From a virus, in IMG/VR virus record IMGVR_UViG_3300022723_000184, positions 124,001 through 188,000 of that record: a stretch of DNA of 64,000 nucleotides; one strand, given 5' to 3'. The position numbers and the translations under genes are program-made. Below are positions 70 to 62,590 of this stretch, piece by piece. The notes under the pieces were generated by a model that saw nothing but the letters and a program-made list of their open reading frames with translations, did no database searches and was not told where the DNA came from. How positions within the stretch are numbered: position 1 is the stretch's first letter; each line of letters starts with the position of its first letter.

Positions 70-97
70 TTGACACCAGTACGGCTACCTAAATAAA
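70..97 (+). promoter_or_regulatory. Possible sigma70-type promoter
   Basis: A consensus TTGACA at 70-75 is followed after 16 bases by AATAAA (92-97), which matches the -10 consensus at four of six positions. Initiation would fall near 104 and the transcript would cross the reverse complement of a CRISPR repeat (139-174) and end at the terminator at 197-227. This would be a roughly 120-nt anti-repeat RNA. The -10 is weak, so the promoter is a proposal only. Confidence 0.35.
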
Positions 98-138
98 CGT
101 GTTTTTTGCGTCAAAATACATGCAGGCAAATTAGCCCG

Positions 139-188
139 GTCTCATCTTCTAAACCGATGAGCAGGTATTAAGATCCTCGGTATTATAG
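139..188 (-). repeat. Solitary CRISPR repeat unit 1, with its own -10 box
   Basis: Positions 174 down to 139 on the minus strand match the 36-nt repeat of the array at 27503-28247 with one substitution (fourth base T instead of G). Upstream on the minus strand, TATAAT (187-182) sits exactly 7 nt before the repeat, as in the array leader. The intervening 7 bases are ACCGAGG here and GCCGCGG in the array. An almost identical 50-nt unit lies at 12027-12076. No second repeat follows, so this is a single-repeat unit whose 'spacer' would be flanking DNA (138 downward). It could make a crRNA-like or decoy RNA. Read on the plus strand it is an anti-repeat. Confidence 0.9.
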
Positions 189-1932: not shown

Positions 1933-1946
1933 AAAAAGTACTTTTT
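1933..1946. repeat. Palindrome AAAAAGTACTTTTT, copy 1
   Basis: Perfect 14-bp palindrome just after the lectin gene stop and about 50 nt before the start at 1996. Identical copies occur at 20099, 34496, 52720 and 61326, with variants at 30170 and 48703. Intergenic position suggests a binding site or processing signal; function is unknown. Confidence 0.85.
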
Positions 1947-1995
1947 AAAATACCCGCATATCGGCTTAAAAGATATGACGAAAGGGAGGCACACG

Positions 1996-9829: not shown

Positions 9830-10020
9830 GCCTTGGCGCTGGCGGCAGAATGTCGTGGTCGCGGTCGCGGTCGTGGTCGCGGTCGTGGTCGTGGTCGTGG
9901 TCGCGGTCGTGGTCGGGGTCGCGGTCGTGGTCGCGGTCGTGCTCGGGGTCGCGGTCGTGGTCGCGGTCGTGGTCGCGGTCGTGGTCGTGGTCGCGGTCGG
10001 GGAGCGACAACAACCGATAG
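9826..10020 (+). CDS. Low-complexity SRSW-repeat protein (64 aa)
   Basis: ATGA overlap with the upstream stop selects this frame. After MSLGAGGRM the protein is almost only Ser alternating with Arg or Trp (SWSRSRSWSRSW) and ends SGSDNNR. The DNA is built from imperfect GGTCGC/GGTCGT hexamers (about 9855-10002). Other frames of the same tract read RGRGRG (start at GTG 9833) or VVVAVV, so the frame choice rests on the overlap and on the pairing with the preceding gene. Repeat length should vary among isolates by slippage. Function unknown; RS-like tracts can bind RNA. Confidence 0.55.
   Translation: MSLGAGGRMSWSRSRSWSRSWSWSWSRSWSGSRSWSRSCSGSRSWSRSWSRSWSWSRSGSDNNR
9855..10002 (+). repeat. Hexanucleotide tandem repeat (GGTCGY)n
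   Basis: About 25 imperfect hexamers of GGTCGC, GGTCGT and a few GGTCGG or GCTCGG variants in tandem. The tract encodes the SRSW protein and is a clear slippage-prone low-complexity region. Confidence 0.9.
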
Positions 10021-11160: not shown

Positions 11161-12048
11161 TTGGCCAAACGCAAGTTCACGATGCACGAGCAGATGATCT
11201 TCGACGTAATCCGCAAACAGGCGGGCACGCTGTCGAAGGCGGCGTTGGAAGGCGTGATGAACGCCGTCGACGCCAACGCCTCCGAGATCAAGATCACGCT
11301 CGACGAGGGCAGGATGACCCTGTCCGACGACGGTAAGGGGTTCCGGTCCAAGAAGGAGATCGAAGACTACTTCGAGACCTTCGGCCGACCTCACACAGAG
11401 CAAGAGCAGAAGGTCTTCGGCAAGTTCCGTATGGGTCGCGGGCAGATGTTCGCGTTCGGCAGGAACCTGTGGGAGACCGGACGATTCCGGATGGACGTCG
11501 ACGTCAAGGACAAGGGCCTGGATTACGACCTGAAGGAGCTGTCCGAGAAGGAGCGGGCGCCCGGTTGCTCGATCACGATCGAGCTGTACGACCAGTTGCT
11601 GCCGAGTGACGTCGACAAGACGGTCAGGGACCTGGAGCTGTGGTGCAAGTGGGCGCCGCTCCGTGTGGTGCTCAATGACCGGGAGATCAGTTCGGATCCC
11701 GCTGCCCAGGAGTGGCAGTACGAGACGGACGAGGCCTACGTCAGTCTGACGGGTGTCGGCGGTCTGACGATCTACAACCAGGGCGTGTTCGTCATGGACA
11801 TTCCGGCCTACCGGTACGGGACGGGCGGCGAGGTCGTGACCAAGATGGGTCAGGATCTTGACGTCAACTTCGCCCGCAACGACATCCTGGCTTCGTGCCC
11901 GATCTGGAAGAAGGTCTCGCCCTTCATCGACCAGCGGGCCACGGAGAAGAACACCAAGAAGCGGGCCCTGGACGACGGCGCCCGCCAGAGGCTGGCCCAC
12001 CAGTTGAAGGCCGGCGAAGAGATCGAGTCTCATCTTCTAAACCGATGA
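11161..12048 (+). CDS. GHKL/HSP90-type ATPase, C-terminus cut short by a repeat insertion (295 aa)
   Basis: TTG start after GGAGAG. N box EGVMNAVDANA (about residues 31-41), G1 box LSDDGKGF and G2 box GKFRMGRGQMFAFG define a GHKL nucleotide-binding fold, as in HSP90, MutL and type II topoisomerase B subunits. The final residues SHLLNR and stop are encoded by a solitary CRISPR repeat unit (12027-12076). Removing 49 bp between AGTCT (12026-12030) and AGTCT (12075-12079) restores a frame running to TAG at 12128 and ending in SSKKDFVFDWIKNIMLI. The coding tail after the insertion keeps G/C-biased third positions, so the insertion looks recent. The cellular role is unknown. Confidence 0.85.
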   Translation: MAKRKFTMHEQMIFDVIRKQAGTLSKAALEGVMNAVDANASEIKITLDEGRMTLSDDGKGFRSKKEIEDYFETFGRPHTEQEQKVFGKFRMGRGQMFAFGRNLWETGRFRMDVDVKDKGLDYDLKELSEKERAPGCSITIELYDQLLPSDVDKTVRDLELWCKWAPLRVVLNDREISSDPAAQEWQYETDEAYVSLTGVGGLTIYNQGVFVMDIPAYRYGTGGEVVTKMGQDLDVNFARNDILASCPIWKKVSPFIDQRATEKNTKKRALDDGARQRLAHQLKAGEEIESHLLNR

Positions 12049-12076
12049 GCAGGTATTAAGATCCTCGGTATTGTAG
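12027..12076 (-). repeat. Solitary CRISPR repeat unit 2, inserted in the GHKL gene
   Basis: Minus strand 12062-12027 equals the array repeat except for one base, and is identical to unit 1 at 139-174. TACAAT (12075-12070) sits 7 nt before it, the same place as TATAAT in unit 1 and in the array leader. The unit is flanked by AGTCT on both sides (12026-12030 and 12075-12079), and the gene reads through if it is removed. A transcript from the minus strand would carry the repeat hairpin followed by antisense GHKL sequence. Confidence 0.92.
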
Positions 12077-12139
12077 TCTAGCAAGAAGGACTTCGTGTTC
12101 GACTGGATCAAGAACATCATGCTCATTTAGGAGGTTGTT

Positions 12140-12406
12140 TTGAAAACCATTTGGAAATTCCCGCTCGAAATCGTCGACCAGCAAGAGGTCGAGATGCCTG
12201 CCGAAGCAGGCGGCATTCACGTGGAGATGCAGAACAACCAGCTGTGTTTGTGGTCGATGGTAGATCCCGAGGCGCCCAAGGTGTCCGTCAAGATCCGTGT
12301 CGTTGGTACTGGGCACCCTATCCCGGACGCCGACAAGCTGACGCACTTGGGCTCGTGCCTGATGGCCGGCGGTGCCCTCGTGTGGCATGTGTTCAAGAAG
12401 GACTAG
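12140..12406 (+). CDS. DUF7352-like small phage protein (88 aa)
   Basis: TTG start with a perfect AGGAGG about 7 nt upstream. MKTIWKFPLEIVDQQEVEMP, then LCLWSMVDPEAPKV, GTGHPIPD and LMAGGALVWHVF follow a widespread small phage/prophage family (DUF7352 as I recall it). It is a compact all-beta domain of unknown role. It is the last plus-strand gene before the minus-strand block. Confidence 0.75.
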   Translation: MKTIWKFPLEIVDQQEVEMPAEAGGIHVEMQNNQLCLWSMVDPEAPKVSVKIRVVGTGHPIPDADKLTHLGSCLMAGGALVWHVFKKD

Positions 12407-13074
12407 AAGGGGTCGGATACGCGGCCTAACCAGTTTACCACCGTCGGGCCGAGGTGGTAGGCGGCGGTCTGCTCCATGTAGACCACGCGATCGCGTTCGG
12501 CCCACTGCTTCGCAAATTGGATGTCGCAGGTCTCGGCGGTCTGAAACCGTTCGGGGTACGGCTTCCGTTGCGAGGTGTGGTAGAGCTGGAAGTAGCCTCG
12601 GACCAGGCCGTGCTCGAAGGCGGCTGAGTCCGGGGGGATGTACGCCAGGCGGGTGTGATACGGGATGAACGGGTCGGCCTGCTTGATCGCATAGCGAGAG
12701 GGTACGACGAACCTTGGCGCCCCGTACAGCTTAGTAGGGTCAGGGACGACCCGGTGCAGTTGGTCGATCGTCTTCTCGGGGATCACGATGTCCGCGTCCA
12801 GGTGTAGTATCCAACCAGGGGACGCATCGAAGATGCCAGCGCACCGGCTTAGCAGGTGCGACAGTGCCTTGCCCTTGTTGAACGGTGCACCGCCCTCGTA
12901 GAAGGCGTCGGTGCGGACAAGAGAAAAGCCCAGGTCCTTGCAGACCTGGGCCGTGTGTTCGTCTTGGTTGTCGGTCACGACGACGACCCTGGGGGTCAGC
13001 CGCTTCCAGGACAGGCCGGCGATCTCCAGGGTGTCGGCGTAGTTGACGCTGACACTGACGATCGTCGGCTGCAT
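12403..13074 (-). CDS. Glycosyltransferase-like protein (223 aa)
   Basis: ATG at 13074. The N-terminus (IVSVSVNYADTLEIAGLSWKRLTPRVVVVTDNQDEHT) resembles a GT-A Rossmann half, and GWILHLDADIVIPEKT contains a DAD in the position of the metal-binding DxD motif. A conserved-looking FQLYHTSQRKPYPE follows. The inferred activity is nucleotide-sugar transfer, possibly to virion proteins or DNA bases. The start overlaps the end of the next minus-strand gene, so the two are coupled. Its 3' end overlaps the plus-strand gene at 12140 by 4 nt. A second GT-like gene lies at 53735. Confidence 0.6.
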   Translation of the reverse strand: MQPTIVSVSVNYADTLEIAGLSWKRLTPRVVVVTDNQDEHTAQVCKDLGFSLVRTDAFYEGGAPFNKGKALSHLLSRCAGIFDASPGWILHLDADIVIPEKTIDQLHRVVPDPTKLYGAPRFVVPSRYAIKQADPFIPYHTRLAYIPPDSAAFEHGLVRGYFQLYHTSQRKPYPERFQTAETCDIQFAKQWAERDRVVYMEQTAAYHLGPTVVNWLGRVSDPF

Positions 13075-14243: not shown

Positions 14244-15906
14244 GGCTAAGGCACCTCGTAGTCTGAACATCCATGTTCCCTGGGCCGAGGTCGCCGAGGC
14301 TCTGGAGTTGCCCCTGAAGAGCCAGACACTCCCCGCTACGACCAGATGCCCATTGTGCGGCGGACGCCGCTTACGTATCTATCAGGATAGCACAAGCGGG
14401 GGGTCATGGCACTACTGCGGTGATTGTAAATCCCGCGGTGACATGATAACACTGGCCGGTTCCGTGTGGAAAACGGACGTCTACGAGACGCTCGACAGGC
14501 TGAGAGATGCTGGCATCGATCTGCCCGATACGCAGTTAGGGTCGCCCCAGGTCGTCAGTTACGCCGATCGACAGAAGCGACAGGCCACGATCAGCGAACT
14601 TTGGAAGCTGGCGCAGCGTCAATTGTGTGCCGGCCGGATGGGGGGAGTCGCTGACCTGCAGCGGAAGTACTATCTTCGGTTCAAAGGCGACCGTGAGCGG
14701 GTGGAGGACGGGCCGGCCAAGCTATACGGGGCCCTGACCGTCAAGCAGGCGGAGCGGGCGTTGTACAGCCCGGGGTCGTTGAACAAGTACGGGCGGACGA
14801 AGAACGCGCACCTCGCCTTCAAGGGCCGCAACTGGGGCGATGTCCTGGTCATGCCGTTCTACGACATGCCCCAGCGGATCTGTGCCCTCAGCTTTATGGG
14901 GCGCCGCGGCAATCCGAAGACCGACCAGGTGTTTTACACGACGCACACCAGCGCGATCGAGGCGGGCCTCGGCGGGCTGCCCTCGATCGAACTGGCTCAT
15001 GACCCGGACACGGTGATTGCCGTAGACGACTGGCTGTTCTACTTGCGGGCCCAGATCCGCCACTTCCGCAGCTCGTACATCCCGATGCCCATGGTCGTAT
15101 GGCGGGACGAGGGCAAGATCAGGACCCAGCGGGCGTGGAACGCGGTCAGTGACAAGAACATCGTGTTCTGGGGGTTTAACTTGGACGCCCGGATGATCCG
15201 GCACGCGATGGAGACCGACGGCATGATCTCGCTGCTCGGGCCCAAGGAGTTTGTCGACGACCAATCGGTCGGCCACTTCCTGCGGGACCACCGGGGCACC
15301 GACCTGCCCCGCGACGTCATCCGGGCCGCGAGGCCGTGGCGCAAGGCTCTGGCCCACTGGCTCTCGTGCAATAGGCCGGAGCACGGCCACAATCTGTTCA
15401 AGGCCCTCGAAGAGCTGGGCGAGGACGTCAGCCACATCCTGAACCAGATCGGCAAGGGCCCGACGACGATCGCCCGACCGGTCATGCGGAGGTCGGCCGA
15501 GGTCGGCCCCTACACGATCTCCGAGCGAGGCGGGTGCTGGTACCACGACAGGTACAGGACCCGGCCCGAGCTGATCATGGATGCGGTTCTCAGGGTGACC
15601 CATGCGATCAACGACCTGCGGTCGGGTGACCTATGGTACCGCGGGTTCATCGAGTACCGCGGGCAGCGGATCTATTTTCTGGAGCCGGCCAAGACCATGG
15701 AGGGCCGGACCCTGTTCTGGATCCGGGACAAGGTCAGCGCCGCGGGTCTCGGGCTGCTGCGGTACAGCTCGATCTGGTCACGGGGTGGGAGGCACAATCT
15801 GTACCAGGTGGCCGTGACCTTCGACGAACCGCGGTTTGTGAATGAAGACCTGGCCTTGCACGTGCAGGAGATGCGTGAAGCCGGGCACCTGATCGATCCG
15901 ATCTAG
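14242..15906 (+). CDS. Primase-like zinc-finger protein (554 aa)
   Basis: The N-terminus has CPLCGGRRLRIYQDSTSGGSWHYCGDC (about residues 34-60), a DnaG-type CHC2-like zinc ribbon that normally recognises ssDNA template. Downstream, a TOPRIM-like segment is only weakly visible (VLVMPFYDMPQRICALSFMG and TVIAVDDWLFYL) and the usual acidic catalytic cluster is not clear. A complete TOPRIM primase is encoded at 43636, so this copy may be a diverged paralogue with a regulatory or virion role. ATG 14242 overlaps the divergent start in CATG; a GTG at 14236 is also possible. It ends where the terminase gene ends on the other strand. Confidence 0.6.
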   Translation: MAKAPRSLNIHVPWAEVAEALELPLKSQTLPATTRCPLCGGRRLRIYQDSTSGGSWHYCGDCKSRGDMITLAGSVWKTDVYETLDRLRDAGIDLPDTQLGSPQVVSYADRQKRQATISELWKLAQRQLCAGRMGGVADLQRKYYLRFKGDRERVEDGPAKLYGALTVKQAERALYSPGSLNKYGRTKNAHLAFKGRNWGDVLVMPFYDMPQRICALSFMGRRGNPKTDQVFYTTHTSAIEAGLGGLPSIELAHDPDTVIAVDDWLFYLRAQIRHFRSSYIPMPMVVWRDEGKIRTQRAWNAVSDKNIVFWGFNLDARMIRHAMETDGMISLLGPKEFVDDQSVGHFLRDHRGTDLPRDVIRAARPWRKALAHWLSCNRPEHGHNLFKALEELGEDVSHILNQIGKGPTTIARPVMRRSAEVGPYTISERGGCWYHDRYRTRPELIMDAVLRVTHAINDLRSGDLWYRGFIEYRGQRIYFLEPAKTMEGRTLFWIRDKVSAAGLGLLRYSSIWSRGGRHNLYQVAVTFDEPRFVNEDLALHVQEMREAGHLIDPI

Positions 15907-18860
15907 TCGAGATCCCAGTTCGGGTTCTCGGGATTCAACGCATCCATGATCGCACGGTCGATGCCGATGTTTTCGATCTCGGCAAGGTTCGGCCAGTTGC
16001 CAGTCGCCTGGTACAGTGTGATCAGGCCGAGGTTGGTGGCCTGGGCGAAGTCGTCGGACAGCGCAGGATCCCGGATGATCGTGTAGATGTCCTTACCCAG
16101 GCGGCTGTCGACCTTCTCCTCGACCAGGGCCAGGAACTCCCGGATGAGGCCGGGGTTCTCGGCGTCCTTGTAATCGTCTTGAAAGAACCGGAGCCAGCCG
16201 GTCTTGATCTGTTGGCAGGTGAGCTGCAGGGACCGGGGCTTGTCGACCAGGTAGTAGTCGCGGGGGTGGCGGTCCGTCCGGGGCTTGGGAACGATGATGC
16301 CGCCGACGGCCGCACGCTGCAGCTGGCAGGCGATGATCCGGTTGTAGGGGAAGCCGGCCTGATTGATGAACGTCTCCCGCAAGGAGCCGGCACCCGTGTA
16401 GTCGTGAGCCATCAGGTGACACTTGAACCGGGTGAGAAGGGCAATGGCCAGCCGGGCTTCCCGGGCATGGTCGTGGGGCGTCAGCGAACGCAGGGCGTAC
16501 AGGCAGTCCACCCGACCATCGGGCATCATGCCGAGGACCGAGTAGGTCGTGAAACTGATGCCCTGTTCGCCGCCGCCGCCCCAGTCCACGCCCAAACAGC
16601 GGAGGGTGTACTCGCCGATCTGTTTCTGGGCCTCTTCGACCTCGTTCTTCCACGGAAGGCACGCGGCCTTCATCAGGTCGGTGAGCGTCACGAGCTTCGA
16701 GCCGGTGTCGTAGCTCTCGCCGCAGACCTCGTTGTAGAACACATGGATCGGGGTGTTGCCCCGGCCCTCACGCTTGCCGAGAAGGACGTCCCACTTCTCG
16801 GCGTTGCCGTAGTGCATCGGCATGATGATCTGCGGCACGTGGTACCCGGCGAACGTCCAACGCTTTTCCGGGTGGGCATGAACCCAACGGCCGTGCAGCT
16901 TCGGGTGGATGGGCCTCCGGCACTTGGCGCAGATTACGGCCGGATTGTTGAAGGAGATGTCGTCACGCAACGGGCCGATCATCTTGTCGAGATCGTGGGT
17001 CATCGCCGGTACGTTATGGTAATTGCAGCGGTGACATTTGATGACCCATTCGGCCATCGAACTGTCTCGCCAAAGAGTTTCGATCGTGTTTTCGAGGGTC
17101 TTTGGAGTGCCCGCAAACGACTCGATGCCTCCGTACTTCGATCCGGACATCGTTTCCCGGATGATCGGGATGAAGTCTTTGTCGAGGTCCTGCACTTCGT
17201 CATAACAATTATGTGTCAGCACACCTTCAGCGAAGAAGCAGTGTTCTCGTTGCGTGTTGATGTCCCAAACCGGTTTGAGGTCAAGACGTTTTACGTGGAC
17301 TACGTGTACAAACGATGTCTCACTTTTCGACACTCTGGCCCGCAGACGGGATTCGATGCCGCAATCTGATGCTGCTTCGCTTCTATCGTTTTCCCGCACA
17401 TCGAACAGGCAATTTCGGGGCGAGGTTTCGCGAGCTTGTAAGACATCATCTTCGGGACGAACGCGGATACGTTTTCGGACAGTTTCCTGGAGTCCGCGGC
17501 CGGCAGGTAAACTAAGTGATAGAGCTTTCCTGTACGAGAGTTTATGGACGGGTGACGTTTGGCCGACAACAATTCTCGTCGCTGTAGGTCGGACGCGATG
17601 AGGTCCACTTCCCTTTCGGTGAACCCTTGCGTGTTGAAGTGGATAGTACTTCTTTGTCGTGCCCCGTCGTCCATGAGCTAGTAAGCGATTCCTCGCCAGT
17701 CGAGTCGTTCTAGCCAATCCTGACTGACGCGTTTCTTTCCTTCCGGACAGGTCAGCGCATACAGCGGAGCCAGCTCCACGGCGCTTACGGTGTTGAACAC
17801 GCAAGATACTTTGCCCCAGCCTTTGTTTTCTTTCACTCTTGGTGGTGTGGACACGTACTCGCCTAAGACTGCTGCCTTGTGTCGGCAGTACGCTTCTCGA
17901 GACCCGCCGTGGCGGAAGCATACCCGCGGGTTTGCTGTGTTGCTCGATTTTGACAGGCAAGCATCCCCGAGCAAACAGCCGAGTAGAAGTTGTTCTTGCT
18001 CGCAGGTCAACGGAGGCACCTTCTTCGGTTTTCTCCCCGGGCGAGAAAAGGGTCGACAAGCGGATCCATTCGCCCTCGGCGGTTTTGAACCGAGAGTCTT
18101 TTGTACACCTAAGGACCGAGCCATTGGAAAACCGGACTTCGTAGATCTGCTGGACGCCTTGGAAGATTTTTTCGGTAACGACATCGTCGACAACCTTTCC
18201 GTCGTTGTTGACGGCCGGCACGATGTCCCCAGTTCTGGCTTCGTCGATCCGGATACCGCCGCGGTTCCTGGTTTCGATTATTGTATCGCCTACGAAGCAG
18301 TTCTGGTCAGCGGAAATACCACGAGTACGTTCGGCGTCGAGGAACGCGAACGAGAAGATCATCTGGCTGTTGTTGCGGAAGGTACGTTGCAGCACAGAGC
18401 CAATCGTGTTCGTGCCGGTGAACACGTTGACCACGGGCGACTGCTCGATGAACGGTCGGATGTAGTTCTGGCTGAATCGCCGGATCATTTCAAACAAGGG
18501 CGTGACGTACAGCGTCGAGAAGTACGGCAGGCAGTTCGACTGCACGACGCCGCGACTTGCCAGGCTCGTCGACTTGGAGACTTGACGGCCTGTTTTGAGC
18601 AGCGACTTGCGGGCCATGCGAGTCCGGAAGAACGGCTCGAACGGGAAGTAGTTGTCGAGGCTGTACGGTTCGCCCTTGAGGTTGAGTAGCAGCGGGAGCA
18701 GGGGTTTCAAGGACGCCACCCTGCTTTTGCGCATGAGGTGGGCGGCCACCGTAAGTCGGCGGGTGTTGGCGTCCTCGAACCCCGATAGTTTTAGGCCGTC
18801 AAGGATCTTGGGCGAGACGTCGAGGCCCATTTCCTTGATGACGTCGGAGACAACTGACAT
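15903..18860 (-). CDS. terL: Terminase large subunit with an in-frame intein (985 aa precursor)
   Basis: The N-extein (187 residues) holds the ATPase motif RKSLLKTGRQVSKST (Walker A variant near 90-98). The C-extein begins CYDEVQDLDKD, the Walker B motif, and carries LRCLGVDWGGGGEQG, whose Asp starts the RNase H-like nuclease domain, then MAHDYTGAGSL. The spliced protein would be about 621 aa, normal for TerL, the motor that cuts and packages DNA. The intein (17208-18299) splits the ATPase active site just before Walker B. The ORF stays open through the intein. The start CAT shares CATG (18858-18861) with the divergent membrane-protein gene. Confidence 0.93.
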   Translation of the reverse strand: MSVVSDVIKEMGLDVSPKILDGLKLSGFEDANTRRLTVAAHLMRKSRVASLKPLLPLLLNLKGEPYSLDNYFPFEPFFRTRMARKSLLKTGRQVSKSTSLASRGVVQSNCLPYFSTLYVTPLFEMIRRFSQNYIRPFIEQSPVVNVFTGTNTIGSVLQRTFRNNSQMIFSFAFLDAERTRGISADQNCFVGDTIIETRNRGGIRIDEARTGDIVPAVNNDGKVVDDVVTEKIFQGVQQIYEVRFSNGSVLRCTKDSRFKTAEGEWIRLSTLFSPGEKTEEGASVDLRARTTSTRLFARGCLPVKIEQHSKPAGMLPPRRVSRSVLPTQGSSLRRVRVHTTKSERKQRLGQSILRVQHRKRRGAGSAVCADLSGRKETRQSGLARTTRLARNRLLAHGRRGTTKKYYPLQHARVHRKGSGPHRVRPTATRIVVGQTSPVHKLSYRKALSLSLPAGRGLQETVRKRIRVRPEDDVLQARETSPRNCLFDVRENDRSEAASDCGIESRLRARVSKSETSFVHVVHVKRLDLKPVWDINTQREHCFFAEGVLTHNCYDEVQDLDKDFIPIIRETMSGSKYGGIESFAGTPKTLENTIETLWRDSSMAEWVIKCHRCNYHNVPAMTHDLDKMIGPLRDDISFNNPAVICAKCRRPIHPKLHGRWVHAHPEKRWTFAGYHVPQIIMPMHYGNAEKWDVLLGKREGRGNTPIHVFYNEVCGESYDTGSKLVTLTDLMKAACLPWKNEVEEAQKQIGEYTLRCLGVDWGGGGEQGISFTTYSVLGMMPDGRVDCLYALRSLTPHDHAREARLAIALLTRFKCHLMAHDYTGAGSLRETFINQAGFPYNRIIACQLQRAAVGGIIVPKPRTDRHPRDYYLVDKPRSLQLTCQQIKTGWLRFFQDDYKDAENPGLIREFLALVEEKVDSRLGKDIYTIIRDPALSDDFAQATNLGLITLYQATGNWPNLAEIENIGIDRAIMDALNPENPNWDLD
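17208..18299 (-). other. Intein in terminase (364 aa)
   Basis: Splice junctions are visible: SADQN before Cys (18299) and GVLTHN before Cys (17207). The N-terminal blocks read CFVGDTIIETRNRGGIRIDEARTGDIV and VQQIYEVRFSNGSVLRCTKDSRFK. The C-terminal blocks read LKPVWDINTQREHCFFAEGVLTHN, with the penultimate His and final Asn needed for cyclisation. Base composition is less GC-rich than the exteins. The middle is translated out of frame relative to a homing endonuclease (see next entry), so the precursor carries an arginine/serine-rich nonsense linker instead of the enzyme. Confidence 0.92.
17300..18020 (-). pseudogene. LAGLIDADG homing endonuclease remnant in another frame of the intein
   Basis: In a frame different from the splicing ORF, minus-strand translation gives PPLTCEQEQLLLGCLLGDACL (first LAGLIDADG helix, about 18015-17960). 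A recognisable endonuclease body continues to RLDWRGIAY, then an in-frame TAG (17678-17680), then LMDDGARQRS, the second LAGLIDADG helix. IAY-W-LMDDG is the usual pattern, so TAG probably arose from TGG. Frameshifts near 18020 and again near 17300 return translation to the splicing frame. The enzyme is therefore broken while splicing is preserved. Confidence 0.85.
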
Positions 18861-25457: not shown

Positions 25458-25609
25458 TGACCCTGTTCTCGGAGCGGGCCACCCGAAGGGCCTACTGGGC
25501 CCTGGGTGGTCCGGAGAACAACCGCTGCTGGCGGCCGAGTCGCCAACAGGCTGCTCATCGACAAGAGGATGAGACAAAAAAAAAAGGAATAGCGCATGGG
25601 ATTCAATAA
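25457..25609 (+). CDS. Possible small ORF overlapping the cas12m start (50 aa)
   Basis: The ATG overlaps the preceding TGA (TGATGA), typical of this phage. MTLFSERATRRAYWALGGPENNRCW reads well, but the second half runs through the repeat-like hairpin (25553-25575) and the A10 tract, and overlaps cas12m by 14 nt. It may be a leader peptide or only an open frame. Confidence 0.4.
   Translation: MTLFSERATRRAYWALGGPENNRCWRPSRQQAAHRQEDETKKKGIAHGIQ
25553..25575 (+). promoter_or_regulatory. CRISPR-repeat-like hairpin in the cas12m leader
   Basis: CTGCTCATCG and GATGAGAC match the 3' half of the array repeat, with an 8-nt loop GACAAGAG in place of the 9-nt loop GGTTTAGAA. The stem CTCATC/GATGAG is fully kept. 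It ends 20 nt before the cas12m ATG and is followed by ten A residues and the RBS AAAGGAA. Cas12m binding or cutting here would give feedback control of its own mRNA. Confidence 0.65.
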
Positions 25610-27365
25610 GGACCCAGAGGCCCGCTGTGTGGTTTACCAGTACGGCGGCAAACATCCGACGGAAAACGAAGACGAAGCGATCAACCAGCTCGCCAAGGCG
25701 AACCGTTTTCGGAACCGGCTCGTTGAGTTGGAGCTACAACGACGTGAAGAATACCACGCTGCGTTCTCGGGTTACGGAGACCTGGCGGAGCCGTCAAATC
25801 AGCTTGAGACGCTCAACGAGCAGCTGACCGCTGCGGTGGCAGAACTTAAGGCGTGGAGACAATTGAACGGCACTCGAAGTCAACACCCGACGCTAACCCC
25901 GCAGATCGTTTCGCTACGGGCTCAGGCTCGCCAGCTACGGACACAGATCAAGTCGATCAAGGAAGCGGCCAAAGGCGATCCTACGGTGCAGGCGGCAATC
26001 GAAAAAGCAAACCAGCAGCACCGAGATCAGACCAAAGCTGCGTACGGCGCTGTAAGAGAATCGAACCCGGAGGCCGAGGACGCCAGAGACCGGCATGGGT
26101 TGTTCTGGGGAACGGCCCTCCTAGTTCAAAGGGCAGCGACACAGTTCCAGAAGGGCCCTCCCCCGAGGTACAAACGTTTCGACGGGACGGGAACTATCGG
26201 CGTGCAGCTGCAGAACGGGATGTCTGTGGAGGATCTGTTCACTCCGGGCGGCAGCGTCTGGATTGACCCCGTTCCTCCGGAGGCCTGGGACCCGCAGACG
26301 CCGAGAGGTCAAAGGCGAAAACTCGCAAGAACGATGCTACACATGCGGATCGGCGGGAAGCCGCAGGCCTGGGTGATTCTAAAGCTACCTGTCACCGTGC
26401 ACAGACCGCTGCCTGCAGGAAAACTTATCAAGTGGGTCACGGTCACTCGGCGTAAGTACGGTTCACAGGCGCGGTGGTATGTAAACGTCACGACGGATAT
26501 CAGGTCTGGTGGCACGCTTCACGATGATGTTGCGGCTGCCGGATTTGTGGGTGTCGACCTGGGTTTCAGGTTGTTCAAGCCCGCAGAAAGCAGCTCAGGC
26601 AAGCGATCGCTCCGAGTGGCTGTATGGGCCGGAGATGACGGGGAGACAGGCGAACTTCGCCTCGACGCGAGGTTTATGTCCTACATCTCAAAGGCCGACG
26701 GTTTGAGGTCGATCCGGGACAAGCGGCTTGATCAGATCAGAGCGGCGCTGCTTCCGTTGTGTGACGAGGCGGGTACGCCGGAGTGGTGGAAAGACGACAC
26801 TCAACACATGGCCAAATGGAGGTCTCCTCGAAAGCTGTATCACTTGCTCCACAAGTGGAAAGACAACAGGTGGGATGGCGACAAAACGCTGTTCGATCTG
26901 TTGGTTAAGTGGGTAGTTCAGGACCGTCACCTCCACGTGTGGGAAGCCAACAATCGCCGAAAAGTAGCGGCTCGTCGCCTGGACATGTACCGGAACCTGG
27001 CGGCCTCTTTGAGGCGCAAGTACGCGGTTATCGGGATCGAAGACATCGATTGGCGGATCTGGAGCAAGTTGGCCCTGCCCGAAGAAGAGGAGACCAAGTC
27101 AAAGAAGTTCCGTGTTCAAAAGAAACATGCGGCGGTCGGTCTGCTTGCAGAGACGCTGTCGAATTGCGGGGCACAGGTTGTACGTTTGGATCCCGCTTAC
27201 ACGACGAAGCGGTGCAACGCCTGCGGCAAGATCACCGAATTTGACGCTGACCGGCACCTGCGACATACGTGCGAACATTGCCATGCGGAGTGGGACCAAG
27301 ACTACAATGCGGCAAAGAACCTGCAAGACATGGCGAGCGGCAACGCCGTAACGCAAACCGCGTAG
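25596..27365 (+). CDS. cas12m: Cas12m-like type V CRISPR effector (589 aa)
   Basis: ATG follows AAAGGAATAGCGC. The N-terminal 180 residues are a helical recognition region with coiled-coil character. FDGTGTIGVQLQ (195-206), PEAWDPQTPRGQRR (228-241), LPVTVHRPLP (264-273), WRSPRKLYHLLHKWKDN (408-424) and ANNRRKVAARRLDMYR (451-466) follow Cas12m (type V-M, formerly V-U1), whose members are about 600 aa. RuvC motifs are GVDLGFR (Asp321), IGIEDI (Glu482) and DQDYNAAKN (Asp567/569), with a zinc ribbon C540/C543/C559/C562. Characterised Cas12m proteins process pre-crRNA without tracrRNA and bind dsDNA to block transcription rather than cut it. All three acids are present here, so nuclease activity is open. 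The array lies 137 nt downstream. Wobble positions are visibly less G/C-biased than in neighbours, suggesting transfer. Confidence 0.88.
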   Translation: MGFNKDPEARCVVYQYGGKHPTENEDEAINQLAKANRFRNRLVELELQRREEYHAAFSGYGDLAEPSNQLETLNEQLTAAVAELKAWRQLNGTRSQHPTLTPQIVSLRAQARQLRTQIKSIKEAAKGDPTVQAAIEKANQQHRDQTKAAYGAVRESNPEAEDARDRHGLFWGTALLVQRAATQFQKGPPPRYKRFDGTGTIGVQLQNGMSVEDLFTPGGSVWIDPVPPEAWDPQTPRGQRRKLARTMLHMRIGGKPQAWVILKLPVTVHRPLPAGKLIKWVTVTRRKYGSQARWYVNVTTDIRSGGTLHDDVAAAGFVGVDLGFRLFKPAESSSGKRSLRVAVWAGDDGETGELRLDARFMSYISKADGLRSIRDKRLDQIRAALLPLCDEAGTPEWWKDDTQHMAKWRSPRKLYHLLHKWKDNRWDGDKTLFDLLVKWVVQDRHLHVWEANNRRKVAARRLDMYRNLAASLRRKYAVIGIEDIDWRIWSKLALPEEEETKSKKFRVQKKHAAVGLLAETLSNCGAQVVRLDPAYTTKRCNACGKITEFDADRHLRHTCEHCHAEWDQDYNAAKNLQDMASGNAVTQTA

Positions 27366-27502
27366 CCGATCGATCTGTAGTGTGTACAAGTAGTTGTGGC
27401 GGCTACGGAGGGCCGCTGCACTTCTGTCAAGGGTGCCGACGATCGAACCGCTCGAAAACGGCCTGATAACCATGTACGCACGTGTAGGTTATAATGCCGC
27501 GG
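27366..27502 (+). promoter_or_regulatory. CRISPR array leader with TATAAT box
   Basis: This 137-nt gap contains no ORF. A perfect TATAAT (27490-27495) ends 7 nt before the first repeat, so transcription should start at or beside the first base of repeat 1. No good -35 is seen at 16-18 nt. The same TATAAT/TACAAT plus 7 nt occurs before both solitary repeats, which supports its function. Confidence 0.75.
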
Positions 27503-28247
27503 ATCGTAATACCTGCTCATCGGTTTAGAAGATGAGACGCGGCATTGATTGCCTTCTTGAGTTGCTGCTCCAACATCGTAATACCTGCTCATCGGTTTAG
27601 AAGATGAGACATCGCCGCATCGCTGGAAGCGGGCGTGGCGTCGGCGGATCGTAATACCTGCTCATCGGTTTAGAAGATGAGACCTTTCTCTGTGTCCGAG
27701 ATAACGGGGTCACTAATGTCATCGTAATACCTGCTCATCGGTTTGGAAGATGAGACAAGCATCCGAGCAGCCGCTACAAGGACAAGATCGGCATCGTAAT
27801 ACCTGCTCATCGGTTTAGAAGATGAGACTAGTCGGGCAATTGCTCGAACGGCACAGAGATATCGTCATCGTAATACCTGCTCATCGGTTTAGAAGATGAG
27901 ACGCTTACCGGTGGCCGAGGCCAAGGCGCGATGGAGAACATCGTAATACCTGCTCATCGGTTTAGAAGATGAGACACGGTGGATCCGGTCGAGCGGCTGA
28001 TCCTTCACATCATCGTAATACCTGCTCATCGGTTTAGAAGATGAGACCCGGTGATCGACGCGGTCCTCGAGAACGCCGAGGACATCGTAATACCTGCTCA
28101 TCGGTTTAGAAGATGAGACAAGTGGATCAGGTTCTTCTCATCGTAATACCTGCTCATTGGTTTAGAAGATGAGACGCGGACTGCCCCGAGATGCGGCGCC
28201 GGCTGTGGGTAATCGTAATACCTGCTCATCGGTTTGGAAGATGAGAC
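27503..28247 (+). CRISPR. Type V CRISPR array, 11 repeats and 10 spacers
   Basis: The 36-nt repeat begins ATCGTAATACC and ends GATGAGAC. The 3' half folds as CTCATC/GATGAG, placing a hairpin directly 5' of each spacer, as in type V crRNAs. Repeats start at 27503, 27575, 27648, 27721, 27793, 27867, 27940, 28012, 28084, 28140 and 28212. Spacers are 36, 37, 37, 36, 38, 37, 36, 36, 20 and 36 nt. Repeats 4 and 11 have GGTTTGGAA, and repeat 10 has CTCATT. Degeneracy at the distal end fits transcription from the cas12m side. No spacer matched the window by eye. No adaptation genes are in the window. Confidence 0.98.
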
Positions 28248-39571: not shown

Positions 39572-39697
39572 GCGGTGGTGGCCTTGGTGTGGTCTCGCCC
39601 TGTAGGTTGGCGAGCTGGCATTGTTAATGCCCAAGACCTGTGGTGGTCTTCACATCTTAGCGCCAGCCACCCACCAACGCAAGGAAAGTGGTGCGGC

Positions 39698-50581: not shown

Positions 50582-50617
50582 GTCGTAATGTCCGCTCACC
50601 GGCTTGGAAGATGAGAC
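50582..50617 (+). repeat. Degenerate solitary CRISPR repeat in the recA-like leader
   Basis: Matches the 36-nt array repeat at 29 of 36 positions and keeps the GATGAGAC end. Differences include GT for AC at 9-10 and GGCTTGGAA for the loop, with the A to G change also found in repeats 4 and 11. One stem pair is lost (C opposite A). No TATAAT box lies 7 nt upstream. It ends 11 nt before the recA-like ATG and directly before its RBS. Confidence 0.82.
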
Positions 50618-61352: not shown

Positions 61353-62582
61353 ATGCAGTACGCCATTTACAACAAGGATCCCGACGGCAACCCCGTGGAC
61401 CGCGTGGAGAACCCGGAGGGCGGCGAGCTGGTCTTCGACGAGTACGAGGCGGCAACGGCCTGGTTGGTCGAGGCCGCCCGGACCAAAAAGATCCCGCTCA
61501 AAGTCGCCGGTTACTCGATCCAGTGCGTCGACAGCGAGGGCAACCTTGTCGAGGCGGTGCCCGAGGGCGACGCCAAGGCCGCCGGGAACCAGGCCAACGA
61601 GCTGCTGGCCTCTAACAAGGACGTGCGGCAGGCAGTGGCCACCATGATCGCCGGCCGCCAGATGTACGCCGTGGCCGTCACCGAGCTGGAGAGGGTGCTG
61701 GACAAGCTGGAGGACGTCCACCCGTTGGTGGCCGACGTCCTGGTCCAGACGGCGGCCCAGACCGCGTCCGAGCCCTTCGACGAGACGATCTTGTTCCAGG
61801 GCCTGGTCGAGACCGTGTTTCCCTGGATGCAGGAGGTTTGCAAGAAGCACACCGACGAAGAGGTCGAAGAGCGAAAGGCCGAGGCCCAGGTCAACGAGGA
61901 CCGTCGCCGCAAGTGCAGAGTCCCGATCGGCGTGTACCTGGACCGAGGCCAAGACGAGTACTTGACCCGCGGCACGCACGTGGTGTTCGTCGGTTACGGC
62001 CCGGCCATCCGGGTGGTGCTCGACCACATCACGACCCGGACCCTTGCCGCGGTTTCCGACGAACACCCCAACGCCGTTTTTACCGTCCTACGCCTCGCCG
62101 ACAAGGCGACCAAGGAAGACGCCCACGAGCGGCTGGTCCGGTTGGGTAAGGGCGACTGGGAGGACTGCGCCAAGAACGGCAAGTCGTTCCCCCGCCTCGT
62201 CGGTGAGAAGATCCTGCCGATGCTGCCGGCGATGCCCGACCTGTTGGTGTGCGACGACATGGCGCACGCTCACACCGGCATCCACAACTCCCGGGAAACG
62301 ACCCGGGCCAACGAGACCCTTCGCCGCCTGGGCAAGTGGTCGAGCGACGACGCCGGGTGTGCGTTCGTCGGGGCCATCCCGCTCAATAGCAAGGCCCCGC
62401 CCGTGCTTATGGGCTCTGAATGGGAGAGGCTTAAGGCCCATTCCGTCATCCGACCGGTCACCGTGACCACGGACGGCGTGGAGGAGGGCAAAGCCAAGAT
62501 CACGATCGGCCGCGACGCTTTCGAGCTGGTGGTCGACCAAGAGCTGTTGCAGGGCAAGAACAAGATCGTTCTGTCCGACTAG
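61353..62582 (+). CDS. Hypothetical protein (409 aa)
   Basis: ATG 61353 is preferred over the upstream frame because AAAGGCAGGG lies just before it. The N-terminus reads like a small alpha/beta domain (YAIYNKDPDGNPVDRVENPEGGELVFDEYEAATAWLVE). Long helices follow, and a later region (THVVFVGYGPAIRVVLDHITTRTLAAVSDEHPNAVFTVLRLADKATKED; PAMPDLLVCDDMAHAH) looks RecA-like without a Walker A. Possibly a degenerate ATPase. Unknown role. Confidence 0.7.
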   Translation: MQYAIYNKDPDGNPVDRVENPEGGELVFDEYEAATAWLVEAARTKKIPLKVAGYSIQCVDSEGNLVEAVPEGDAKAAGNQANELLASNKDVRQAVATMIAGRQMYAVAVTELERVLDKLEDVHPLVADVLVQTAAQTASEPFDETILFQGLVETVFPWMQEVCKKHTDEEVEERKAEAQVNEDRRRKCRVPIGVYLDRGQDEYLTRGTHVVFVGYGPAIRVVLDHITTRTLAAVSDEHPNAVFTVLRLADKATKEDAHERLVRLGKGDWEDCAKNGKSFPRLVGEKILPMLPAMPDLLVCDDMAHAHTGIHNSRETTRANETLRRLGKWSSDDAGCAFVGAIPLNSKAPPVLMGSEWERLKAHSVIRPVTVTTDGVEEGKAKITIGRDAFELVVDQELLQGKNKIVLSD

Positions 62583-62590
62583 GAGAGATC

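Follow-up and report, generated by a model that had tools for sequence, protein, structure and literature searches.

Why should a phage that encodes its own CRISPR (clustered regularly interspaced short palindromic repeats) array also carry one lone copy of the array repeat, preceded by a promoter box, in the 3′-terminal part of a gene for a GHKL ATPase? The lone copy, termed unit 2, lies in a window of 64,000 nt (positions 124001-188000 of the 201,946-bp record IMGVR_UViG_3300022723_000184, a virus infecting bacteria), in which an earlier note had described it as a promoter-repeat unit that had moved or been copied, with a possible exclusion function against related phages. As documented below, unit 2 is one of approximately 15 solitary units in this genome, and similar scatter is seen in other phages encoding the CRISPR effector Cas12m. 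The units may well act through their common binding handle for Cas12m rather than through a target. Coordinates are those of the window unless marked as genome coordinates; unit 1 and unit 2 are window names, and all other units are named by genome coordinate.

Anatomy of unit 2

The components of unit 2, and the second unit of the same kind in the window, are as follows.

12027..12062, minus strand: CRISPR repeat of unit 2, ATCTTAATACCTGCTCATCGGTTTAGAAGATGAGAC (covariance model E value 2.1e-11, the sequence being in the training set)
12063..12076, minus strand: promoter part of unit 2, CTACAATACCGAGG, common to unit 1 (-10 box TACAAT at 12070-12075)
12003..12026, minus strand: stretch after the handle in the predicted unit-2 RNA, antisense to the end of the GHKL gene (assigned by position alone)
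139..188, minus strand: unit 1, the same cassette with one mismatch (-10 box TATAAT at 182-187)

The repeat of unit 2 is 36 nt long, with a handle stem CTCATC/GATGAG followed by AC. The -10 promoter box and this one repeat form a cassette of 50 bp running from GTCT to TAG; a consensus scan found no -35 (sigma70) element for unit 2. In a mini-array two repeats flank a spacer, a layout that unit 2, with one repeat only, does not have. The nearest other repeat is a unit-like stretch situated 765 bp away on the opposite strand.

Solitary units across the genome

The genome was scanned by structure and with a covariance model, R1, trained on divergent units and unit 2. Approximately 15 solitary units were found in the 202 kb, far beyond the few in view in the window, together with an array of 11 repeats; R1 itself reported 29 sites. 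Unit 1 and units 67857, 100873 and 136827 were recovered by the model even though they lay outside its training set. The stems vary (CTCATC/GATGAG, CATATC/GATATG, CTCGCC/GGCGAG, CGCACC/GGTGTG and CTCGCT/AGCGAG), and they do so in a compensatory manner: 98.8% of the alignment cells at stem positions are paired, double-sided changes occur in five of the six pairs, and none of 500 shuffles equalled this. No Rfam family matched anywhere in the window, the exact repeat was not found in other IMG/VR contigs, and no close relative of the phage was found.

The solitary units fall into two classes.

Genome 67849, 72751, 100873, 101887, 125944, 149542 and 174582, plus strand: class a, in 5′-leaders, with a ribosome-binding site (RBS) and start codon 11-24 nt downstream
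Genome 5222, 7620, 46773, 53583, 105824, 124139, 136027 and 163592, minus strand: class b, antisense at gene ends

Leader placement, for which an RBS and a start codon must follow at 10-26 nt, applies to 7/15 units, as against 7-8% of random positions; unit 149542 is the leader of cas12m itself. All eight minus-strand units are antisense to the preceding gene. A -10 box (TATACT, TATAAT, TACACT or TACAAT) is located 8-12 nt before the motif AATRCC in seven of these eight and in the array leader, a position from which the RNA would start approximately at the handle. Units 46773 and 53583 also supply the final codons of a gene (SHLPSR and SHLMGR, each followed by a stop), as unit 2 does.

Members or relatives of these classes in the window include the following four.

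1944..1979, plus strand: 5′-leader unit with compensatory stem CATATC/GATATG, directly before an RBS and ATG (structure scan, covariance model)
39592..39627, minus strand: solitary unit (genome 163592) with stem CTCGCC/GGCGAG, followed after approximately 24 nt by an intrinsic terminator
50582..50617, plus strand: 5′-leader unit before a UvsX/RecA-like gene (covariance model)
12827..12862, plus strand: unit-like stretch in a glycosyltransferase gene (12403-13074, minus strand; covariance model E value 5.7e-6)

The last of these reads in frame as SHLLSRCAGI, with Cys at the position of the stop in other units, and homologues are approximately five residues shorter at this place. It may be an ancient unit that the gene has taken up, with the former stop now read as Cys.

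Cas12m and its array

The window contains an effector gene and a CRISPR array to which the solitary units can be compared.

25542..25575, plus strand: repeat-like hairpin in the cas12m 5′-leader, followed by A10, an RBS and ATG (structure scan, covariance model)
25596..27365, plus strand: cas12m, type V-M/V-U1 effector of 589 amino acids (aa), preceding the array (homology)
27490..28247, plus strand: CRISPR array of 11 repeats and 10 spacers (TATAAT leader box at 27490-27495)

The effector matches PDB entry 23vw_A (E value 5.9e-67), Cas12m2 (8hhl, 1.5e-26) and the PADLOC model Cas12u1 (1.8e-98), and the likely RuvC acidic residues are present (D321, E482 and D567/D569). With type V-M the locus shares effector homology to Cas12m/V-U1, an adjacent array and a stem close to the 3′-terminus of the repeat. 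The array leader has the same promoter-repeat layout as the cassette. Spacer 9 (28120-28139) is 20 nt long, the remaining spacers being 36-38 nt. According to the available part of PMC11013384, characterized Cas12m proteins bind DNA next to protospacer-adjacent motifs (PAMs) rich in T or C without cleaving double-stranded DNA, have no requirement for a trans-activating RNA and process their own precursor CRISPR RNA (crRNA). No variant described as tested there cleaved double-stranded DNA, the D-E-D variants included, and it is these variants that the acidic residues of the present protein resemble.

The GHKL gene and the insertion of unit 2

The interrupted gene and its surroundings comprise the following.

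11161..12048, plus strand: GHKL (HATPase_c_3) ATPase gene, TTG start at 11161, C-terminal half missing
12080..12130, plus strand: coding-like tail, SKKDFVFDWIKNIMLI and a stop, in the GHKL frame after removal of 49 bp (assigned from third-position G+C and frame)
12140..12406, plus strand: next gene, encoding a DUF7352 protein (E value 6.2e-30)

The placement of the unit, both AGTCT copies (12026-12030 and 12075-12079), the in-frame tail and its stop, all as described in the earlier note, were verified in the sequence. The GHKL open reading frame closes within unit 2, ending in EIESHLLNR with a stop at 12046-12048, so that the residues SHLLNR and the stop do derive from the repeat, as had been claimed. 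Deleting 12031-12079 (49 bp) yields a protein ending in EIESSKKDFVFDWIKNIMLI, with TAG at 12128-12130. The coding quality attributed to this tail was borne out: G+C at third codon positions of 12080-12127 is 15/16 in the GHKL frame, as compared with 4/16 and 1/16 in the remaining two. The tail has 17 residues, and in TAGGAGG its stop runs into the RBS of the gene that follows.

Plasmids and 18 IMG/VR phage contigs yielded GHKL relatives, with protein identities of at most 51%. They do not end near the truncated end; the complete phage homologues found are all 541-675 aa long (609 aa for the copy in a terminase-related phage), and homology to the window protein ends at approximately residue 286, at unit 2. 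The homologue that is closest in the linker reads LDDGERQRLAEQVANGEIESSEAADLKIFTDVSG there, as compared with LDDGARQRLAHQLKAGEEIESSKKDFVFDWIKNIMLI in the joined sequence. Comparison of the tail with the C-termini of 22 GHKL homologues gave nothing above shuffled controls, 17 residues being too short for a firm negative; a tail without such homology is one of the outcomes that the note itself had named as refuting it. The missing GHKL half gave no convincing match elsewhere in the genome, and DUF7352 beside GHKL was not found in the relatives. Given the lengths of its homologues, the window protein is approximately 250-380 residues short, for a cause other than unit 2. The truncation far exceeds the effect of unit 2, which altered the final residues only.

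A short duplication, AGTCT, had been taken as the mark of insertion. The stretch common to units 1 and 2 is exactly 50 bp, GTCT through TAG, and most of both AGTCT copies is therefore cassette: four of five bases on the left and two of five on the right, six of ten together. Excision of the 50-bp cassette leaves the wrong frame, and the frame is restored by removal of 49 (or 46 or 52) bp. Direct repeats of at least five bases occur at the edges of 8% of random insertion points, and the edge repeat of unit 1 differs from that of unit 2 in both sequence and period. A transposition-like target duplication at unit 2 was rejected on these grounds.

The note's proposal that a unit has moved or been copied is, by contrast, well founded. 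Near-identity extends over 58 bp between units 5222 and 7620 and over 50 bp, with one mismatch, between units 1 and 2; in both pairs the flanks are unrelated and the match stops abruptly at the final base of the repeat. The flank of unit 1 has, in addition, a paralogue without a unit (genome 189120-189155, 29/36 bases). Sharp-ended pairs and a unit-less paralogue support the view that promoter and repeat were copied together, as one discrete cassette.

The paralogous flank belongs to a duplicated intergenic module, GCGTCAAAATACATGCAGGCAA, at window 90-138 and genome 189120-189155; it is followed by a terminator and holds unit 1 in one copy only.

Other Cas12m phages

A search with three aligned Cas12m proteins yielded further Cas12m phages, whose array repeats differ from that of the present phage and among themselves. 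All three of the phages searched, which have divergent Cas12m proteins, carry solitary copies of their own repeat (approximately 18 in G033, 11 in G032 and 5 in G031), and reversed patterns gave none. In G033, 6/18 units lie in 5′-leaders vs a background of 7%; in G031 one unit is situated in the region upstream of cas12m. The virus Rctr197k, which has a related Cas12m, carries one solitary unit before a transfer RNA gene. Scatter of predicted units is common to at least four distantly related Cas12m phages, whose repeats are of four different kinds. The units found where the near-identical Cas12m phages G033, G034 and G035 overlap are common to them, which makes these phages uninformative on empty-site polymorphism.

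Two unit arrangements in G033 may be recorded here. At 62495-62588 two units point towards each other across 40 nt, each guide being the complement of the other's, and at 78460 and 78527 a tandem pair precedes a start codon. A terminase-related phage with a distant Cas12m, G016, contains a dispersed palindrome, TTGAGTAAYGCATTACTCAA, in at least 12 copies in 34 kb; no CRISPR array was found beside its Cas12m gene.

Possible roles of the solitary units

Searches for targets gave little. In the phage's own genome the only match to any spacer or solitary guide was the unit-less paralogue of unit 1, which has no T/C-rich bases directly beside it; array spacers and solitary guides had no targets in the fetched relatives or in GenBank phages, and no protospacer for the unit-2 guide was present in 50,697 phage records. 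What the units all have in common is the handle and not a target, and for this reason binding of the unit RNAs by Cas12m is favoured. It is put here at about an even chance that the units specify Cas12m handle RNAs acting in cis at leaders or as competing, decoy RNAs. Unit RNAs would begin with the Cas12m handle and would be bound by Cas12m, relatives of which process precursors and bind DNA without known cutting. At leaders the bound protein would cover the RBS, giving feedback on cas12m and on some phage genes. Promoter-driven units such as unit 2 would yield a non-targeting RNA that competes for Cas12m, and the competition would set the amount of free Cas12m available to the array spacers. 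Unit 2 would then need no target, the GHKL site being a tolerated landing spot at the end of a shortened gene. A broader and more tentative proposal, held to be somewhat improbable, is that Cas12m phages use the effector as an RNA-binding regulator, with leader handles tuning transcripts (that of cas12m included) through Cas12m binding or cutting and promoter-driven repeats acting as sponges.

Several observations weigh against handle-based binding. The unit-2 handle has a predicted folding probability of 0.01-0.28, the GHKL antisense stretch pairing with it; the handle of array repeat 4 is predicted to fold just as badly. Leader placement is unenriched in G032 (1/11) and G031 (0/5). The absence of R1 matches at E ≤0.1 from 25 terminase-related phage records, in itself an argument in favour, is weakened by the model representing the repeat of this phage only; among those records G016 alone has a Cas12m, and a distant one. 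Unit 163592, with its terminator, looks like a one-guide crRNA gene, a misfit to a pure decoy role.

The same unit is an argument for the exclusion function proposed in the earlier note, by which a unit-2 crRNA, antisense to GHKL, would send Cas12m to uninterrupted alleles in related phages. The order promoter, repeat, guide is that of a crRNA gene, the guide directly adjoins the repeat, and viral mini-arrays directed against relatives are described in the available part of PMC11656645. The inferred empty allele, however, has AGAC 5′ of the protospacer in place of a T- or C-rich PAM. AGAC is the 3′-end of the repeat itself, so that a system binding the uninterrupted allele would risk binding its own array. 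Exclusion is disfavoured for unit 2 because of this sequence at the PAM position and because the GHKL antisense is predicted to disrupt the handle. In addition, the GHKL homologues share no more than 51% protein identity, which leaves no known allele whose DNA would match, and the phage records contained no protospacer. Exclusion is accordingly considered quite unlikely for unit 2; these objections concern that unit, and others may still have such a role. An antisense action in cis, in which the promoter RNA would pair with the 3′-end of the GHKL messenger RNA (mRNA) and the repeat would be only a 5′-stabilizer, agrees with the orientation of the eight minus-strand units. Some of these, however, lie 9-67 nt past the stop codon, one of them behind a terminator, and the handle follows each phage's own CRISPR repeat; this explanation appears very improbable.

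Two further alternatives concern the units as a group. They could be a selfish or passive cassette, resembling a miniature inverted-repeat transposable element or the end of an IS605 insertion sequence, with Cas12m as a TnpB descendant, spreading without function and having landed once as unit 2. Such an element would be expected to leave near-identical copies that end sharply amid unrelated flanks, as in the two pairs above, and a guide lying in the flank recalls the TnpB omega RNA. Against this, the compensatory stem changes and the conserved -10 box suggest selection, there is no target duplication, no target motif shared at the ends was seen, and no mobilizing enzyme was identified, no systematic search for one having been made; functionless spread is thus regarded as rather unlikely. 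Alternatively, the units could be RNA anti-CRISPRs (Racrs), mimicking repeats so as to poison a foreign type V-M or similar system (Cas12m of the host, rival phages or plasmids). A promoter followed by a solitary repeat is the layout given for Racrs in the accessible portion of PMC10651486, and Cas12m is common on plasmids according to that of PMC11656645. It is apparent, however, that the units of each phage match the repeat of its own array and not a common foreign one, so that its own Cas12m would be poisoned, and that units also occur in mRNA leaders; an action against foreign systems is unlikely.

Other features of the genome

A 14-bp palindrome, AAAAAGTACTTTTT, occurs approximately 11 times in the genome, often just upstream of a start codon (window 1929, 20095, 34492, 52716, 61322 and others), and a near copy immediately precedes the promoter of unit 46773. 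It is likely to be a phage promoter or operator. Beyond the window, units 46773 and 53583 lie on either side of a gene (genome 46858-53604) for a replication protein of 2248 aa that contains LAGLIDADG/Hint stretches. The minus strand of window 15903-18860 encodes a large terminase of 985 aa with an apparent intein (CFVGDT..., approximately 390 residues). A long tract of GTCG(T/C)GGTCG hexamers is located at window 9852-10007, and one of its frames codes for Ser-Arg/Trp repeats.

Comparison with known systems

In the TnpB omega RNA of IS200/IS605 elements, the scaffold ends at the element edge and the flanking DNA serves as the guide. The units resemble it in both respects; here, in contrast, no transposase was identified, no target motif was shown and the effector is a CRISPR protein. 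Regulation by a Cas protein through an RNA encoded outside the array is exemplified by CreR, which acts via a matched target. Phage TldR guides, as described in the available part of PMC13418256, likewise give a TnpB-like protein non-array RNAs for regulation via a matched target. The units differ from CreR and the TldR guides in that no target was found for them.

Effector homology, an adjacent array, a repeat with a 3′-stem and membership of a DNA-binding, non-cleaving family are shared with type V-M CRISPR-Cas; scattered repeats outside the array are not among the features described in the parts of PMC11013384 and PMC10442227 consulted. Solitary repeats in viruses without cas genes have been described as RNA anti-CRISPRs directed at systems of the host (PMC10651486 and PMC11656645, in the parts available). 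The solitary repeat units (SRUs) and Racrs in the former, like the present units, each consist of one repeat mimic that a predicted promoter precedes in the phage genome; the promoter here is a -10-like box with no -35. The SRUs described there are not accompanied by cas genes and mostly match a system of the host, whereas the present units match the phage's own Cas12m array, number approximately 15 per genome and lie in mRNA leaders in about half of cases. Among the open-licence papers searched, in the parts available, no account was found of a phage that scatters the repeat of its own Cas12m. Measured against these systems, the scattered repeats point to an undescribed control or decoy system, and, if this is true, a CRISPR protein would have been co-opted to control the phage's own genes or its own activity.
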